From Rhodospirillales bacterium (GTDB taxonomy: Bacteria > Pseudomonadota > Alphaproteobacteria > Azospirillales > Azospirillaceae), in NCBI GenBank assembly GCA_003165295.1, contig PLTC01000266.1, forward strand, positions 1-64,000: a stretch of DNA of 64,000 bases. Direction: 5' to 3'. Of the stretch, positions 36,351-45,612 are shown in pieces; positions within the stretch are counted from its first letter, which is position 1, and each line of letters starts with the position of its first letter. The translations under genes and the position numbers were made by a program. The notes under the pieces were generated by a model that did no database searches, had not been told where the DNA came from, and saw only the letters and a program-made list of their open reading frames with translations.

Positions 36351-36378
36351 GTGACACGAGCGATGATTTTGCTAACAT
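36351..36378 (+). promoter_or_regulatory. Possible promoter of the FHA-ExbD-ExbB operon
   Basis: GTGACA (36351-36356), 16-bp spacer, TAACAT (36373-36378), 41 bases before the ATG at 36420. The match is moderate. Confidence 0.35.
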
Positions 36379-36419: not shown

Positions 36420-37406
36420 ATGGATGCTGTGTTCGGCGCAAGTGCCACCCTGATCCCCTGGTTTATAGCGGCTCTTGCCGCAATGCTGACGCTATGGGCG
36501 GTGCTGTCGGCTCTGGCTGCAACTAAGCTGGCCCGGGCAGCAGCCCAGGATGCCGAACGTGCCGCGGGCGGCCTGATCCAGCTTCAAAGGGAGGCGGAGC
36601 GGCTGCACGCGGCATGGCGCGCCGACATGGCGGCTCTGGCCCGTTTGCGTTCGGACGCTGCTCCACCGTCGCAGGTACCCCAGCACGCCCAGGCCCCCCA
36701 GCAGGCGGCACCGCCGCGACAGCCACAGCCGGCCCGGCCGGCGCCACGTCCGCCGCTGGTGGCGAACAAGACCCCGGAAGCCCTGGAAGACCGCACGGTG
36801 ACCATCGGCGCCTGGTTGCCTGCGTCAGATGCCACGACGAAGTTGGTCGAGGCCGGCGACGACGAGGTAAAAGGGTCCGAAACGACACTGATGTTCGGCC
36901 CGAAGCTCTCGCCGGTGGAGGCCAAGGACCAGTTCCATGGCCTGCCGTTGCTGCGGGTGACGGTCGGTAGCGATCCTGGAAAGGAATTTAAACTGCCGTT
37001 TCAGGCCTGTACCGTCGGTCGCGCCGGCACCAACCGCGTCGTGCTTTCCGAGAACAAGGCATCTCGGGTTCACGCTGAAATTCGATTCGACCACAATCGT
37101 TTTTTTCTAAAGGATTTGGACAGCACAAACGGCACGTTACGCAACGGCGCGGCGGTGACCGATGAAGCGCTGGAGTTTGGTGACATCATTACCATCGGCA
37201 AAACCGAGTTGTTGTTTACCTGCGAGGGGTTCGATCTCAAGGATAGTGAGCCGTCCCGGGCCATTGCCGCTTTCGCGCGTTTGCTCGAAAAGGAACCGGA
37301 TTTCATTCCCGCCTTACACAATCTGGCTTTCTTACTCGAACGCGACGTGGCCCGGCGCAGTGAAGCCGATGGCGTATGGAAGCGTTTGAAACGTCTGGAG
37401 CCATGA
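36420..37406 (+). CDS. Membrane-anchored FHA-domain protein
   Basis: The product is 328 residues. TM helix (about 10-33), a short coiled coil (38-80), a Pro/Gln-rich linker (82-115), then an FHA domain (about 180-265) with the phosphothreonine-binding set: TVGRAGTNRVVLS, SRVHAEIRF and LDSTNGTLRNG. The last 45 residues form a TPR-like helix pair (AIAAFARLLEKEPDFIPALHNLAFLLE). FHA domains read phosphothreonine, so a Ser/Thr kinase signal is implied, with the domain on the cytoplasmic side. It is 84 bp before the ExbD-OmpA gene and probably the first gene of that operon. GGAG nine bases before the ATG supports the start. Confidence 0.88.
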   Translation: MDAVFGASATLIPWFIAALAAMLTLWAVLSALAATKLARAAAQDAERAAGGLIQLQREAERLHAAWRADMAALARLRSDAAPPSQVPQHAQAPQQAAPPRQPQPARPAPRPPLVANKTPEALEDRTVTIGAWLPASDATTKLVEAGDDEVKGSETTLMFGPKLSPVEAKDQFHGLPLLRVTVGSDPGKEFKLPFQACTVGRAGTNRVVLSENKASRVHAEIRFDHNRFFLKDLDSTNGTLRNGAAVTDEALEFGDIITIGKTELLFTCEGFDLKDSEPSRAIAAFARLLEKEPDFIPALHNLAFLLERDVARRSEADGVWKRLKRLEP

Positions 37407-37490
37407 TCGTCCCGGTAGATTGGAAGGGAGGGCGCATGCCCGCGGTACCGGAACCGTGCCACCGGAAGGTCGCGCCGAGAGGAGGTCGGG

Positions 37491-38738
37491 ATGAAGCTAA
37501 GCGAGTTGCTGATCGAGCCTGAGGTGACCCTGGAACTGGCGCCGTTGATCGACGTGCTGTTCCTGATCGTGCTGTTCTATGCCGTGTCAAGTTCGCTGAT
37601 CAGCCCGGAGGATCTCGCCCGGCTGAAGGGGCAGCTTGCCACTGCGGCAACCGAGAACCGCACGCTGCTCGAACACGCCAACAGCCAGGAAGCGGTGTTG
37701 AGCCGGCTGCAAGCGGACCTTGCCCAAAGCACCCGGCAGGCGGCGACCCAGAGTGAGCGGGTCGCACGTCTTGAAGCCGAACTTCAGGCCGGGGCGGCAC
37801 AGGTCACCCGGTACGAAGGCGAGATCGCCGGACAACGGGAGCAGATCGGCCGACTCCAAGGCGACCTCGTCACCGCGAGTGCCAGTCTTGGCGACCATCA
37901 GACCCGCCTGGCCGAACAGGCACAGCAGCTGACCCGGGTTCAGGCCGAACTGGACTCGAAGGAGCAGGCGCTGGCGGCCCAGGCTCAGCGCATCGTGGTC
38001 ATGAATCAGTCGCTCGACGACGTGCGCGCCGGGCTGGCCCAAAGTCAGGCCAGCGTCGACCAGCAGACCCAGCGGGCGACCGCGGCCCAGGCGGCGCTGA
38101 CCCGGCTGGAAGCGGAAAGCAAGACGCTGGCCGCCGACCTGTCCCGGGAGCAGGCCGCCCACCAGGCCGACCAGGCGGCGGCCCAGGCCGAACTCGAACG
38201 CCTGCGGGTTCAGGTCACTGAACTGAGTTCCGAAAATGCGCGCTATCAAACTGTCAAGAAGGCCGAACTGGATCGCGCGGCCGGCATCGAGGAAACCCAG
38301 CAGCGCCTCGCCGAAAGCCTAAAATCCCTGATCGAAGACAAGTCGCTGGGGGTCCAGCGGGTCAATGACCGGCTGGTGCTGGAACTGTCGGATCGTATTC
38401 TGTTCGACTCCGGCAGCGAACAACTGCGTTCCGAGGGACTGCCGGTGCTCGCCAATGTTGCCAGGATTTTGGCGAGCCGGGTTCACACCATACAAATTCA
38501 GGTGGGCGGCCACACCGACAATATCCCGCTGGGACCCGGCAGTCACTTCGGCAGCAATTGGGCGCTGAGCGCCGCCCGGGCGGTCAACGTCGTCCGCTTT
38601 CTTGAACAAACCGGCGGCATCGAGCCGAACCGGCTGGCCGCGGTGGGTTACGGTGAATTTCAGCCCATCGCCAGCAACGCCACGCCCGAGGGGCGGACGC
38701 GGAACCGACGTATCGAAATCGTGCTGCTGGCCCAGTGA
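37491..38738 (+). CDS. ExbD/MotB-like helix fused to coiled coil and OmpA domain
   Basis: The product is 415 residues. Residues 15-38 form one membrane helix with the proton-path Asp in the ExbD/TolR/MotB context (LAPLIDVLFLIVLFYAV). Residues about 42-290 are a very long Ala/Gln/Glu-rich coiled coil. The C-terminus (about 295-415) is an OmpA/MotB-type peptidoglycan-binding domain: ILFDSGSEQLRS, GGHTDNIPLGPG, SNWALSAARA and TRNRRIEI. The design is that of a stator: proton flow through the partner ExbB/MotA protein moves the helix while the OmpA domain grips the cell wall. The coiled coil is longer than in MotB, so it could span a wide periplasm. Start set by GAGAGGAGG. Confidence 0.88.
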   Translation: MKLSELLIEPEVTLELAPLIDVLFLIVLFYAVSSSLISPEDLARLKGQLATAATENRTLLEHANSQEAVLSRLQADLAQSTRQAATQSERVARLEAELQAGAAQVTRYEGEIAGQREQIGRLQGDLVTASASLGDHQTRLAEQAQQLTRVQAELDSKEQALAAQAQRIVVMNQSLDDVRAGLAQSQASVDQQTQRATAAQAALTRLEAESKTLAADLSREQAAHQADQAAAQAELERLRVQVTELSSENARYQTVKKAELDRAAGIEETQQRLAESLKSLIEDKSLGVQRVNDRLVLELSDRILFDSGSEQLRSEGLPVLANVARILASRVHTIQIQVGGHTDNIPLGPGSHFGSNWALSAARAVNVVRFLEQTGGIEPNRLAAVGYGEFQPIASNATPEGRTRNRRIEIVLLAQ

Positions 38739-38774
38739 CGCCGCCGCCTGCAAGGAAGCCCCGGGGGAAGGGAA

Positions 38775-39440
38775 ATGGACATTACCGCGATCGAGGGTGC
38801 GTTGCTTGACCTTGCCGGCCGCTTTGGCAGCTTTGTTGTCCACCTGTTCCAACTGGGTGGAGTGGTGGTCTGGTTATTGCTGGTCACGCTGGTCTGGTGC
38901 CTGGGTATCGTCGTCTGGAAGCTTGGCCAGTTGCGCCACCATCGGGTAATCAATGCCAGGGTGATCGCGCAGATCGAGCGATTGTTGCTCGACAATAAGC
39001 TGGCCGAAGCCACCGCCTACTGCAAGAAGGTGTCGCTGCCGATGACCCGCATTATATTGGGCGGCATCCTCTACTATGATCGCAGCGAACACGAAATCAA
39101 GGAACGGTTGGAGGAGGCGGGGCGCCAGGAAATCCCGTGGTTGCGGGCACACCTGACGACCTTGCGCTCGATTGCCTCGGCGGCGCCGTTGCTCGGCCTG
39201 TTCGGCACCGTCATCGGCATGATCCAGGTTTTTGATGCCCTGTCCAAGGGCGGCACCATTCAGGCCAGCGACCTTGCCGGCGGCATCTCCGAGGCGCTGA
39301 TCACCACGGCCTGCGGTTTGGTGGTCGCGATCCCGGCCATCGTCTTTTACAACAACTTCACCAACCGCGTGACCAACCTGATCATCGAGATGGAAAAGAT
39401 CTCGCTGCACATGGTGGCGATCCTGAAGCGGGGTGGCTGA
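38775..39440 (+). CDS. ExbB/TolQ/MotA-family proton channel protein
   Basis: The product is 221 residues with three main membrane segments (about 20-48, 130-160 and 172-196). The family core is clear: LRSIASAAPLLGLFGTVIGMIQVFDAL and AGGISEALITTACGLVVAIPAIVFYN, with the Thr/Ser-lined channel helices. It forms the pentameric channel that couples proton flow to the ExbD/MotB-like partner encoded just upstream (36-bp gap). The gene order FHA, ExbD-OmpA, ExbB, without tonB or tolA/pal, points to a special motor and not TonB or Tol. Confidence 0.92.
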   Translation: MDITAIEGALLDLAGRFGSFVVHLFQLGGVVVWLLLVTLVWCLGIVVWKLGQLRHHRVINARVIAQIERLLLDNKLAEATAYCKKVSLPMTRIILGGILYYDRSEHEIKERLEEAGRQEIPWLRAHLTTLRSIASAAPLLGLFGTVIGMIQVFDALSKGGTIQASDLAGGISEALITTACGLVVAIPAIVFYNNFTNRVTNLIIEMEKISLHMVAILKRGG

Positions 39441-39617: not shown

Positions 39618-40046
39618 ATGTTTGACATTAGCTGGACGGAAATCCTGGTTATCGGGGTGGTGGCCCTGATTGCCATCGGACCCAGGGAGTTGCCGCGGGT
39701 TCTTTACGAATTGGGCAGGTGGGTGCGCCGGTTGCGGGCCATGGCCGCCGAATTCCAGCGTCATTTCAGCGATCTGATGCATGAGACGGAGTTAGACGAG
39801 TTGCGTCGTCAGGCCCAGGCCGCCCATGACCTGACCAAACCCCATAAATTGGCGGAAATGATCGATCCGGGCGGCACCGTTCGTTACGGTGTGGATCACG
39901 CCGTGACCGGTGCCACCGGTTATCCCGGCAGTCCGCCGGAGCCGGTGCCGCCGCCGCCGGTCCCGACGGTAAGGTCGGTGGAATCACCGGCGCCGGTGAC
40001 TGCCGCGCCCGCGGACCGGGCGGCCACCGGCGGCGGGCAGGGGTAA
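39618..40046 (+). CDS. tatB: Sec-independent translocase subunit TatB
   Basis: The product is 142 residues: MFDISWTEILVIGVVALIAIGP is the classic TatB start with conserved Glu and Pro before the amphipathic helix RELPRVLYELGRWVRRLRAM. A Pro-rich C-terminal tail follows. TatB with TatC recognises twin-arginine signal peptides. tatA is not next to it, as would be usual, so it must be elsewhere. tatC starts 5 bases downstream. Confidence 0.94.
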   Translation: MFDISWTEILVIGVVALIAIGPRELPRVLYELGRWVRRLRAMAAEFQRHFSDLMHETELDELRRQAQAAHDLTKPHKLAEMIDPGGTVRYGVDHAVTGATGYPGSPPEPVPPPPVPTVRSVESPAPVTAAPADRAATGGGQG

Positions 40047-40051
40047 CCGCG

Positions 40052-40867
40052 GTGGAAGAGGATTTCGAAGAATCCCGGATGCCCCTGGTTGAACATCTTA
40101 TTGAGTTGCGCAATCGATTGATTTATTCGGTGGTGGCGCTGCTGCTGGGATTTGCCGTCTGTTATAGCTTTCATCAGGAGATCTACGCTTTCCTGGTCCG
40201 GCCGCTTGCGGAAATTCTGGAGGGTCAGGGGCGGCGGATGATCTATACCGGTCTGACGGAAGCTTTTTTCACCTACGTTAAGGTTTCGTTCTGGGCGGGC
40301 GCCTTTATCACCTTTCCATTCATCGCCTCTCAGCTTTGGCTGTTCGTCGCGCCCGGCCTTTACAAGCACGAAAAGCAGGCCTTTCTGCCGTTTCTGATCG
40401 CGACACCGATCCTGTTTTTCATGGGCGGGGCCGTCGTGTATTATTTGGTGTTCCCGCTGGCCTGGCGCTTTTTTCTCGGCTTTGAGCTGAATCCCAGCGA
40501 TCCGTCCACCCTGCCGATCCAACTGGAAGCCCGGGTCAGCGAATATCTGTCGCTGGTGATGACCCTGATCTTCGCTTTTGGGGTCGCCTTCCAACTGCCG
40601 GTGCTGCTGACGCTGTTGGCCCGGGTTGGTCTGGTCACGTCGAAGCAACTGGCGGCAAAGCGCCGCTACGCCATCGTCCTGGTGTTCGTCGCGGCAGCGA
40701 TTTTGACTCCGCCGGACGTCTTCAGCCAGATCAGTCTGGCCATTCCGCTGATGCTGCTCTACGAGGTTTCAATCTGGTCGGCGCGCTGGATCGAGCATCG
40801 GCGCAAGACCGACCATGGGGCGAGCACGGCCGGCGCACCCGGGAACACGACCGAACCGCCGGAGTGA
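40052..40867 (+). CDS. tatC: Sec-independent translocase subunit TatC
   Basis: The product is 271 residues with six membrane helices. MPLVEHLIELRNRLIYS, FFTYVKVSFWAGAFITFPFIASQLWLFVAPGLY, and the acidic and Pro residues of the first periplasmic loop are typical. TatC forms the receptor for folded twin-arginine substrates. The start is GTG at 40052, five bases after tatB, with GGGCAGGGG inside the tatB end as ribosome site. The 20-residue C-terminal tail is polar. Confidence 0.96.
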   Translation: MEEDFEESRMPLVEHLIELRNRLIYSVVALLLGFAVCYSFHQEIYAFLVRPLAEILEGQGRRMIYTGLTEAFFTYVKVSFWAGAFITFPFIASQLWLFVAPGLYKHEKQAFLPFLIATPILFFMGGAVVYYLVFPLAWRFFLGFELNPSDPSTLPIQLEARVSEYLSLVMTLIFAFGVAFQLPVLLTLLARVGLVTSKQLAAKRRYAIVLVFVAAAILTPPDVFSQISLAIPLMLLYEVSIWSARWIEHRRKTDHGASTAGAPGNTTEPPE

Positions 40868-43438: not shown

Positions 43439-43887
43439 GGCTGTTCTCGCAATGGTGTTATGGGCGCCAGTGGCATCGGTGACAGTCTTCCAATCCTTGC
43501 CCCCCGGGTCAACCCGGGTGGTTGTTCCCGCTGACCGCCGTTTCCCCGAACACCTGAGAGGCTGACAAAGAATGCGCGCCACGCCGGCTTTGAAGGAGAA
43601 AAAGCCAATGCTTCCAAAGGGCGTTCTTTGGCTGACCCGATTGCTTGCCACACTCTGAGCCCTTCGATCCGCCGTTGGCGCCGGGCGGTGGCAGGCTGCC
43701 GGACGCTGACGTCCGGCGATACCCGGTTCGGACAGCCAAATTCTCTGGCACCGGTCCGCTCCACTGGTTTATAAAAGCCCATCGGTTCCAGTCCGGGCCA
43801 AACCACGCAATGTCGCATCGGTTGCGACTGGAAGGCCAGAATTGCTGAACCCGAGTGGTTCTCTGTTTTTCAGCGAAGGTTCAGATC
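43439..43887. other. Divergent intergenic region, no gene seen
   Basis: About 450 bases between creA and the rightward 574-residue orphan. A minus-strand frame covers much of it, but the translation is Arg/Pro-rich and unconvincing. No repeat or RNA identified. Confidence 0.45.
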
Positions 43888-45612
43888 GTGCATCCCGACC
43901 CTGCTGTTGTCGGAGAGATCCGCATCACCTATGAGTTACACTCTTTTCGAGACCAGCAATGGTTTCGTTTGAATGTATGGGATCAGCGTTCCGAAGCGGT
44001 TGCTGCCGCCGAGCAAATTTTCTCGGAACAGACGGTCGATGGCGTCCGGGTGGTCCGACTCGAGTATTACGTCGAATACGATTTTACCGACAGCATCATC
44101 ACCTTCAAACGCCTGGCCGGCGACATCACAGAGGCCGATCCGCTGGCTCAGGCCTCCGATATCGGCACCAGTTTCTATTGGCGACAGGTCAGTGATTTTT
44201 TCCGGGACCGCAGCCGCGATGAATTGCGGGCGCAACTTGGCCGCTATCTGGAGGATCGAAGAGTTACGGCATTGGAGTTGGTCTATTCGGAAAAGCACAG
44301 TATCGACCTCGATAATGCCGGTACCATCCTGCAAGGTCTGATTCAGAAGGTTGCGTTACCGGTCGCCCAGGCCGGCAAGCTATCGGCAGCCGGTCTTTAC
44401 AAGGATATGATGTCGGTATGGAGCCAGTTGGTGCTCCAGTTGCGCAATGACTCCATGAACATCAAGCTGCCGCGCATGGAGCCAGGCCGCTTTCTCGAGG
44501 TTGCGGCGCAGATTGAGAAGCAGTTCGGGCCTGAGACCTCCACTTACCATATCTTCCGGGCGATTGTCTCATACCTGATTGAGGGGAAAAGCTGGCTTGA
44601 GAAGCTTGACCGTCTGGGCCAGCTTTTCGACCCCGAGTTCGAATGCCGTCACCTGCGTTTCCTCGACACCCTGGCCGCTGAAATCCTGTCCATGGCCGGT
44701 CCTTTTCGTGAATTGCTCGACGAGGGTGCCGACCGGGTCGCGGCATTCGGTACCGTCAGCAGTCTCTATGGCGGCAGCTACAGGCCGCCGGTGGGTGGCC
44801 TGCCGATGGGCGTGGCGGTGATCAACACCCTGATGGCCGATGGCCGAATGCCGCGCGTCCGTTCGACCCTGCGTCGGCGGCTGTTAAGGGAGATGATCAG
44901 TCGCCAGCCGCTGGTGCCCGGTCGGGCACTGATGTTGGAAATGGAGTCGCTGAACCAGATCATCCAGCATTTCCGAAGCAACGCCCCGAGTCTGTTGCAA
45001 GACGAGGAAATGAACGAAGCGTTGGTGTTTCGCGCCGCACGCACGATTTCCGTCCAGGGGGTCGCGGAATGCATCGCCACCGCGCCGCGCGTCGCCGACA
45101 AGCTGGCGGCGTTGAGCAAACTCGCCGCGCTGGTTCCTGGCGCGGCCAATAAGGCATTGGTCTTTCGCCATTTCCGTTCGGCTTTGCCGCCCGACGACCT
45201 GGTTCGGATTTGCGTTAGGGAAGGTACCAGCCGTATGGCCTCGGTCCCTCTGCTGGCCGACATCCAGAAAACGCTGCTGGCCGCCCCCATCGACGAGATC
45301 ACGCGATCCGAGGTGCTTAGCGCCATCGACGCGGCTTTGCTGGACATTTTCAAGAACGACATCCTGCAAGCCGCCAACCGCAGCTATGCCGATCGTCTCG
45401 TGCTGTTGCTGAAGGTGTGTTCCGGCATCCAGTTGCTGGATGGAAAGGCGAGAACACTGGCGGTGGAGACCATCAGCCGAGAGTTTCGTAATCCAAACTT
45501 CTTGCCGCTGATCAAGAACCGGTTCAAGAACCACGCCGAGCTCAAGGAAATGCTGATCAAGGTCAAGGCATTCCTGGCCAGCGATAAAACACCGGGAACA
45601 ACGCCGGGTTAG
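43888..45612 (+). CDS. Large cytoplasmic orphan protein
   Basis: The product is 574 residues, not recognised. The first 110 residues are beta-rich and aromatic (ITYELHSFRDQQWFRLNVWD, VRLEYYVEYDFTDSIITFKR), and the rest is mainly helical with repeated Leu-rich stretches (RHLRFLDTLAAEILSMAGPF; LMLEMESLNQIIQHF). No membrane helix or signal peptide. The start is placed at GTG 43888, with GAAGG eight bases upstream; GTG 43855 is an alternative. Overall form resembles the orphan at 48390-50057 in size and helical content, but no sequence relation is visible. Confidence 0.7.
   Translation: MHPDPAVVGEIRITYELHSFRDQQWFRLNVWDQRSEAVAAAEQIFSEQTVDGVRVVRLEYYVEYDFTDSIITFKRLAGDITEADPLAQASDIGTSFYWRQVSDFFRDRSRDELRAQLGRYLEDRRVTALELVYSEKHSIDLDNAGTILQGLIQKVALPVAQAGKLSAAGLYKDMMSVWSQLVLQLRNDSMNIKLPRMEPGRFLEVAAQIEKQFGPETSTYHIFRAIVSYLIEGKSWLEKLDRLGQLFDPEFECRHLRFLDTLAAEILSMAGPFRELLDEGADRVAAFGTVSSLYGGSYRPPVGGLPMGVAVINTLMADGRMPRVRSTLRRRLLREMISRQPLVPGRALMLEMESLNQIIQHFRSNAPSLLQDEEMNEALVFRAARTISVQGVAECIATAPRVADKLAALSKLAALVPGAANKALVFRHFRSALPPDDLVRICVREGTSRMASVPLLADIQKTLLAAPIDEITRSEVLSAIDAALLDIFKNDILQAANRSYADRLVLLLKVCSGIQLLDGKARTLAVETISREFRNPNFLPLIKNRFKNHAELKEMLIKVKAFLASDKTPGTTPG

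Follow-up and report, generated by a model that had tools for sequence, protein, structure and literature searches.

Positions 36420–39440 of the 64,000-nucleotide stretch of Rhodospirillales DNA analysed here (the window) hold three co-directional genes, encoding an FHA protein, a fusion of an ExbD-type helix with a coiled coil and an OmpA domain, and an ExbB/TolQ-type channel subunit. That these three genes, separated by gaps of 84 and 36 bases, form one unit is well supported. We read the cassette, with a probability of roughly one half, as encoding a proton-powered, wall-anchored ExbB/ExbD motor in which the FHA protein would act as a cytoplasmic phospho-threonine clutch or adaptor. The features on which this reading draws are as follows.

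36420..37406, plus strand: FHA gene, 328 amino acids (Pfam FHA E=2.5e-16, AlphaFold, Foldseek; conserved in five genomes)
37491..38738, plus strand: ExbD-type transmembrane helix, coiled coil and OmpA domain, 415 amino acids (OmpA 3.3e-18, ExbD 1.5e-4)
38775..39440, plus strand: ExbB/TolQ-type channel subunit, 221 amino acids (MotA_ExbB E=3.2e-35)
36879..36896, plus strand: codons E154-T-T156-L-M-F159 of the FHA gene, a [DE]xT[VL]M(F/L/V) island and candidate phospho-threonine tail

In a first sample of 60 genomes (the window's own and 59 relatives), close orthologues of all three genes occurred in the same five, always adjacent and in the same order, and the other 55 held no close orthologue of any of them. 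Besides the window's genome, the carriers comprise two congeners and a single genome from each of two other genera in the family. Within the window's genus the cassette lies among holC and tatBC; it is located elsewhere in G011 and G013, where the tat genes sit on other contigs. Because the surroundings vary between genera in this way, neither tat nor holC belongs to the unit, and tat genes, whose neighbourhood with the cassette is common only within the genus, were rejected as a part of it. All three genes are under purifying selection, strongest for ExbB and weakest in the FHA linker (dN/dS about 0.03–0.06 for ExbB, 0.06–0.16 for ExbD-OmpA and 0.10–0.19 for FHA; some of the underlying dS values approach saturation). 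Thus, adjacency kept in five genomes with unrelated surroundings, together with purifying selection, argues that the trio is more than a chance arrangement. Within the genus, the sequences appear to have diverged vertically (identities of 92 and 90% for ExbB and about 90% for TatC), and a search for plasmid carriage returned only generic FHA matches. In the cassette-less congeners G002 and G003, one contig carries tatBC and another the holC/histidine-kinase block, so that a clean empty site could not be demonstrated.

An order-level sample (82 genomes) yielded two partial FHA relatives besides the five full-length orthologues already described, and a class-level sample (385 genomes) no FHA orthologue besides that of the window's own genome. 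Two FHA relatives come from another genus of the family: the contig of one (G074) ends soon after the gene, and no motor genes were seen adjoining the other (G080). The preliminary description of this DNA had given the three adjacent genes and their domains correctly, as the Pfam matches confirm, omitting the TPR-like tail of the FHA protein. It had also staked its proposal on the FHA gene being conserved beside the channel genes, as it is in five of five cassette-bearing genomes. A pattern scan of GTDB r220 contigs, from which records near the window's genome were possibly left out and which divergent relatives can escape, found four FHA+ExbD-OmpA+ExbB loci, all from uncultured Rhodospirillales/Azospirillaceae metagenome-assembled genomes. 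The carriers known by name are all such assemblies, from one family.

Judged from sequence, the A and B subunits (the ExbB-type protein and the fusion, respectively) both appear to carry the channel residues of a 5:2 ion motor of the ExbB/TolQ/MotA superfamily. TolQ structures are the best match of the cassette ExbB in the PDB, and in the alignment its T145 and T178 fall exactly on T145 and T178 of Escherichia coli TolQ. The fusion opens with an ExbD-type transmembrane helix bearing D21 within a PLIDV motif identical to that in the genome's own ExbD; its ExbD match, at 22.3 bits, falls slightly below the Pfam cut-off of 25.4. As a phmmer search of the first 60 B-subunit residues against the PDB matched nothing, the D21 assignment rests on this motif. 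All three proton-path residues—D21, T145, and T178—are invariant across the cassette orthologues.

Behind its membrane helix, the fusion continues into a coiled coil (residues about 40–281) and an OmpA peptidoglycan-binding domain (304–406), in which the site residues D343 and R363 are invariant among orthologues; MotB structures match residues 247–413. An AlphaFold model predicts an unbroken single helix from 39 to 281. The coiled coil, ~240 residues long, is strictly heptad (at period 3.5 the power is 27.8, and none of 2000 shuffles exceeded 7.2), its hydrophobic residues hold the heptad phase along the whole stalk, and one orthologue has exactly 21 residues fewer, a difference of three heptads. 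Stalk length varies greatly among the carriers. The distance from the membrane helix to the OmpA domain is 254, 254, 233, 1117, and 836 residues in G000, G001, G004, G011, and G013, and as extended helices the coiled coils would measure ~32–36 nm in the first three, 164 nm in G011 and 122 nm in G013. The G013 fusion (996 residues) has a proline-containing break around residues 425–450, and that of G011 (1277 residues) keeps its heptads locally and loses the overall phase; these two stalks likely fold back or run along the wall. Between the fusion and ExbB, G011 encodes another coiled coil-OmpA protein (L040:8625-10301), which has a hydrophobic segment at its N-terminus and no ExbD motif.

The AlphaFold model of the FHA protein (mean pLDDT 57) comprises an N-terminal helix (2–79) formed by a transmembrane segment and then a cytoplasmic part, a disordered proline-rich linker (81–169), the FHA sandwich (about 170–273) and a three-helix TPR-like tail (278–326). 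It would thus be a cytoplasmic FHA-TPR adaptor without a periplasmic domain. Canonical phospho-threonine-binding residues (GR 200–201, SRxHAE 215–220, STNG 235–238) are invariant in the five orthologues. Across positions 74–169 of the same proteins, T156 and M158 are the sole invariant residues, and the [DE]xT[VL]M island to which they belong lies ~15 residues N-terminal to the FHA domain. The best Foldseek matches, of modest confidence, include GarA and phosphorylated OdhI; DgcB and TPR proteins were matched as well. After phosphorylation of its tail threonine, OdhI holds this residue in its own FHA domain (PMC2784874), and the Bdellovibrio FHA protein DgcB likewise binds its own N-terminal tail; according to the DgcB paper, self-binding tails prefer a hydrophobic residue at −3, Glu at −2, Ser at +1 and hydrophobic residues at +2/+3 (PMC6733907). 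T156 has an acidic residue at −2 (Glu or Asp) and hydrophobic residues at +2/+3 in all five orthologues, in line with part of these preferences; positions −3 and +1 differ. The cassette protein resembles OdhI, GarA, and DgcB in having a flexible tail before the FHA domain with a conserved threonine in a similar context; in contrast to them, it is membrane-anchored, linked to a motor and equipped with a TPR-like tail, and it does not reach the cut-off of the OdhI model.

Kinases that might act on such a tail are encoded in these genomes. All five cassette genomes have Pfam Pkinase matches with E<1e-43, and the best matches of two cassette-less congeners lie near 1e-32. A membrane Ser/Thr kinase whose C-terminal part is a DUF4384 domain (L088:7981-10080 in G001) has orthologues in G004, G011, and G013. 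It is thus present in four of five cassette genomes and in one of the 54 others (the distant G036), giving a hypergeometric probability of 5e-5 that is post hoc and ignores phylogeny; we treat this co-occurrence as a lead only. A search for a TVM motif common to the linkers of the FHA protein and the kinase showed that it is not conserved across the kinases. The window's own genome also has a phospho-signalling set separate from the cassette, on contig C246 (L086:3998-9682). It encodes, in this order, an FHA-trypsin-like protease, a Ser/Thr kinase, a PP2C phosphatase and another Ser/Thr kinase, after which come small envelope-like proteins. Taken together, the kinase data tie no kinase to the cassette; they show that kinases are available in these genomes.

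Known 5:2 ion motors drive flagella, gliding, the Ton and Tol systems and Zorya. For the cassette, we infer a 5:2 stoichiometry, rotation, an FHA–ExbB contact, phosphorylation of T156 and a kinase responsible for it. In the proposed mechanism, the trio would encode one envelope machine in which probably five copies of ExbB and probably two of the ExbD-type helix make up a proton-driven motor of the ExbBD/TolQR/MotAB superfamily. Where an ExbD has a free periplasmic domain, the B subunit would carry a long dimeric coiled-coil stalk and a peptidoglycan-gripping OmpA domain; with the B subunit held by the wall, proton flow would drive ExbB around it. The FHA protein, facing the cytoplasm from the membrane, would most likely dock on the ExbB ring. 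Once a Ser/Thr kinase phosphorylates Thr156 or a partner, the FHA domain could bind that site in cis or trans, and this binding would switch a contact between the motor and a partner. The biological output would most likely be envelope maintenance, or force exerted on or sensed from the wall. The preliminary description had spoken of a possible kinase-gated cell-wall motor, and this remains a plausible hypothesis with indirect support: the phospho-threonine-binding residues are intact, the [DE]xTxM island is conserved and strong Ser/Thr kinases are encoded in five of five carriers. More tentatively, we propose a kinase-gated 5:2 motor that works through its own FHA subunit and whose stalk, if extended, ranges from ~32 to >160 nm between relatives.

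Several observations weigh against a phospho-threonine clutch on a stretched, wall-anchored motor. Apart from the neighbouring histidine kinase, no kinase or phosphatase gene lies within the cassette or adjoins it. The DUF4384 kinase was picked after the fact from a cassette-bearing genome, and the window's own genome, 91% complete, yielded no copy of it. T156 lacks the hydrophobic −3 residue and the Ser at +1 of known self-binding tails, and the AlphaFold models of the FHA and ExbD-OmpA proteins derive from shallow alignments of five and three sequences, respectively. Finally, the longest coiled coils (L041:4791-7781, ~820 residues; L040:4625-8458, ~1100 residues) would by far exceed the width of the periplasm if extended, so that a simple stretched-stalk picture fails for some members. 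The same natural series of stalks (about 220, 240, 820, and 1100 residues) lets one ask what role stalk length plays in a wall-anchored motor.

This variability in stalk length would also suit a wall-tethered tension sensor, which we regard as an unlikely alternative. Here the OmpA domain would report the state of the wall, the ExbB/ExbD channel would open or move, and the FHA protein would relay the event to cytoplasmic phospho-signalling. As has been suggested for Zorya, the signal would travel into the cell instead of passing from a kinase to the motor. An FHA protein that is predicted to be just a cytoplasmic FHA-TPR adaptor with no periplasmic domain is consistent with such a relay, and ZorAB is likewise a motor whose function requires the wall-binding domain of the B subunit and a long structured extension (PMC11890865). 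In Zorya, however, the extension is in the cytoplasmic A subunit, whereas that of the cassette is in the B subunit, and no effector gene lies near the cassette, whose flanks are mostly housekeeping.

The flanking genes include HolC, a histidine kinase, TatB, and TatC. The tatB-tatC pair (window 39618–40867) has no adjoining tatA in the window's genus; G011 and G013 have the full tatA-tatB-tatC set. Upstream of the FHA gene, a consensus scan located one further feature:

36351..36378, plus strand: promoter-like site GTGACA-N16-TAACAT, with TG preceding the second hexamer, 5′ of the FHA gene

The blocks GCCGTGACA and ATTTTGCTAACATGG at this site are identical across three species, and the bases flanking them diverge. 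Farther along the window, positions 43855–45612 encode a 585-residue protein with ~90% identity in a congener and zero Pfam or NCBIfam matches.

Membership in the Tol-Pal, Ton, flagellar stator, PRK09039, Agl-Glt, and Zorya systems was scored in turn; the cassette reaches the cut-off of none of them and bears a partial resemblance to each. It shares its proton-path residues with Tol-Pal and TonB-ExbBD, and its ExbB is closest to TolQ/ExbB. It nevertheless falls short of both equivalog cut-offs (TolQ, 100.7 bits against 221; ExbB, 72.3 against 206), and no TolA, TolB, Pal, or TonB is encoded at the locus. The earlier view that this is not a Tol or TonB set is borne out by these scores and by the missing partners, and the absence of TonB, TolA, and Pal that had been noted holds at the locus; it does not extend to the genome, which carries a separate TolB (contig C289; 447.8 bits, cut-off 343), a TonB-like protein adjoining a different ExbB (C20) and also an ExbB/ExbD pair. 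The closest other ExbB proteins in the class (L047–L050, L066–L069) lie mostly in ExbD/TonB-like neighbourhoods without FHA. With MotAB the cassette shares a B subunit whose OmpA domain anchors to peptidoglycan (OmpA 3.3e-18), which has a coiled-coil stalk in contrast to the plug and linker of MotB. The A subunit scores at most 23.4 bits with the MotA and MotP models (cut-offs at least 237), and the genome carries a separate flagellar-type MotAB pair (C65).

The PRK09039 pairs come close in layout, with two adjoining genes and a B subunit made of a transmembrane helix, a coiled coil and OmpA, and the cassette could be an ordinary non-flagellar wall-binding pair of this kind to which a functionally separate FHA gene is linked. 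The same genome holds one on contig C261 (L007), where the gene after that of a long MotA/ExbB-like protein encodes a coiled coil-OmpA protein of PRK09039 type; the part of this locus that was read showed no FHA gene. A comparable MotA/MotB pair occurs in non-flagellated Komagataeibacter, in which MotA has four transmembrane helices and overexpression of the pair altered cell length and cellulose pellicles (PMC6570709). By contrast, the cassette combines a short A subunit of TolQ/ExbB type with an ExbD-type B helix and an added FHA gene, and its B subunit reaches at best 120.8 bits with PRK09039.1-1 (cut-off 388). Moreover, the FHA gene tracks the motor genes perfectly over three genera and is absent where they are absent, and the trio persists while its surroundings turn over. 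We consider a separate FHA function somewhat less probable still than a tension sensor.

A precedent for the contact postulated in our clutch or adaptor reading comes from Myxococcus gliding, where a TolQ/TolR-type motor cooperates with the FHA membrane protein GltG, for which a two-hybrid assay showed binding to the TolQ-type AglR (PMC3169522). This pair is the clearest precedent for an FHA protein contacting such a motor. It also invites the view that the cassette is a stripped-down gliding or surface-force machine following Agl-Glt logic, with the FHA adaptor and a TolQR-type motor moving envelope cargo, and GltG is indeed among the weak matches of the FHA domain. That match reaches only 35.5 bits, in the FHA part alone, against a cut-off of 650, and GltG has an N-terminal FHA domain plus a TonB-like domain, whereas the cassette protein has a C-terminal FHA domain and no detected TonB domain. 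AglQ/S, unlike the cassette B subunit, are listed with ExbD domains only and no OmpA, and Glt partners do not occur at the locus (no genome search was aimed at other Glt proteins), which makes such a machine improbable in our view.

Zorya offers a similar mixture, sharing with the cassette an OmpA-like wall-binding B subunit, a long structured extension and the 5:2 motor (putative in the cassette); it differs in carrying the extension in cytoplasmic ZorA, with that of the cassette in the B subunit and no effector genes beside it. A Zorya-like anti-phage defence motor would fit the rare and patchy occurrence of the cassette within genus and family and the match of the OmpA domain to ZorB models (1.6e-20), which apart from coiled-coil matches is all that PADLOC gave at significance. 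It is nevertheless very improbable: ZorA matches at only E=0.032 (11 bits), with an ExbB of just 221 amino acids, the neighbouring proteins that were scanned include neither ZorC/D/E nor a further credible defence gene, and divergence within the genus looks vertical.

Full-text searches of the open-licence literature for FHA together with ExbB/ExbD/OmpA or with TolQ/kinase yielded the Glt paper only. No description of the three-gene combination was found there, in keeping with the earlier supposition, and gating of a 5:2 motor by threonine phosphorylation is a control mode that we did not find described in these sources. If the proposed clutch or adaptor exists, the cassette would add a phospho-threonine-linked member to the 5:2 ion motors. 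According to a recent survey, B subunits of non-flagellar (ExbBD/TolQR-type) motors carry no OmpA-homologous wall-binding domain (PMC12505986); the cassette, which pairs a TolQ/ExbB-type A subunit with a fusion of an ExbD helix to OmpA, seems to depart from this generalisation.

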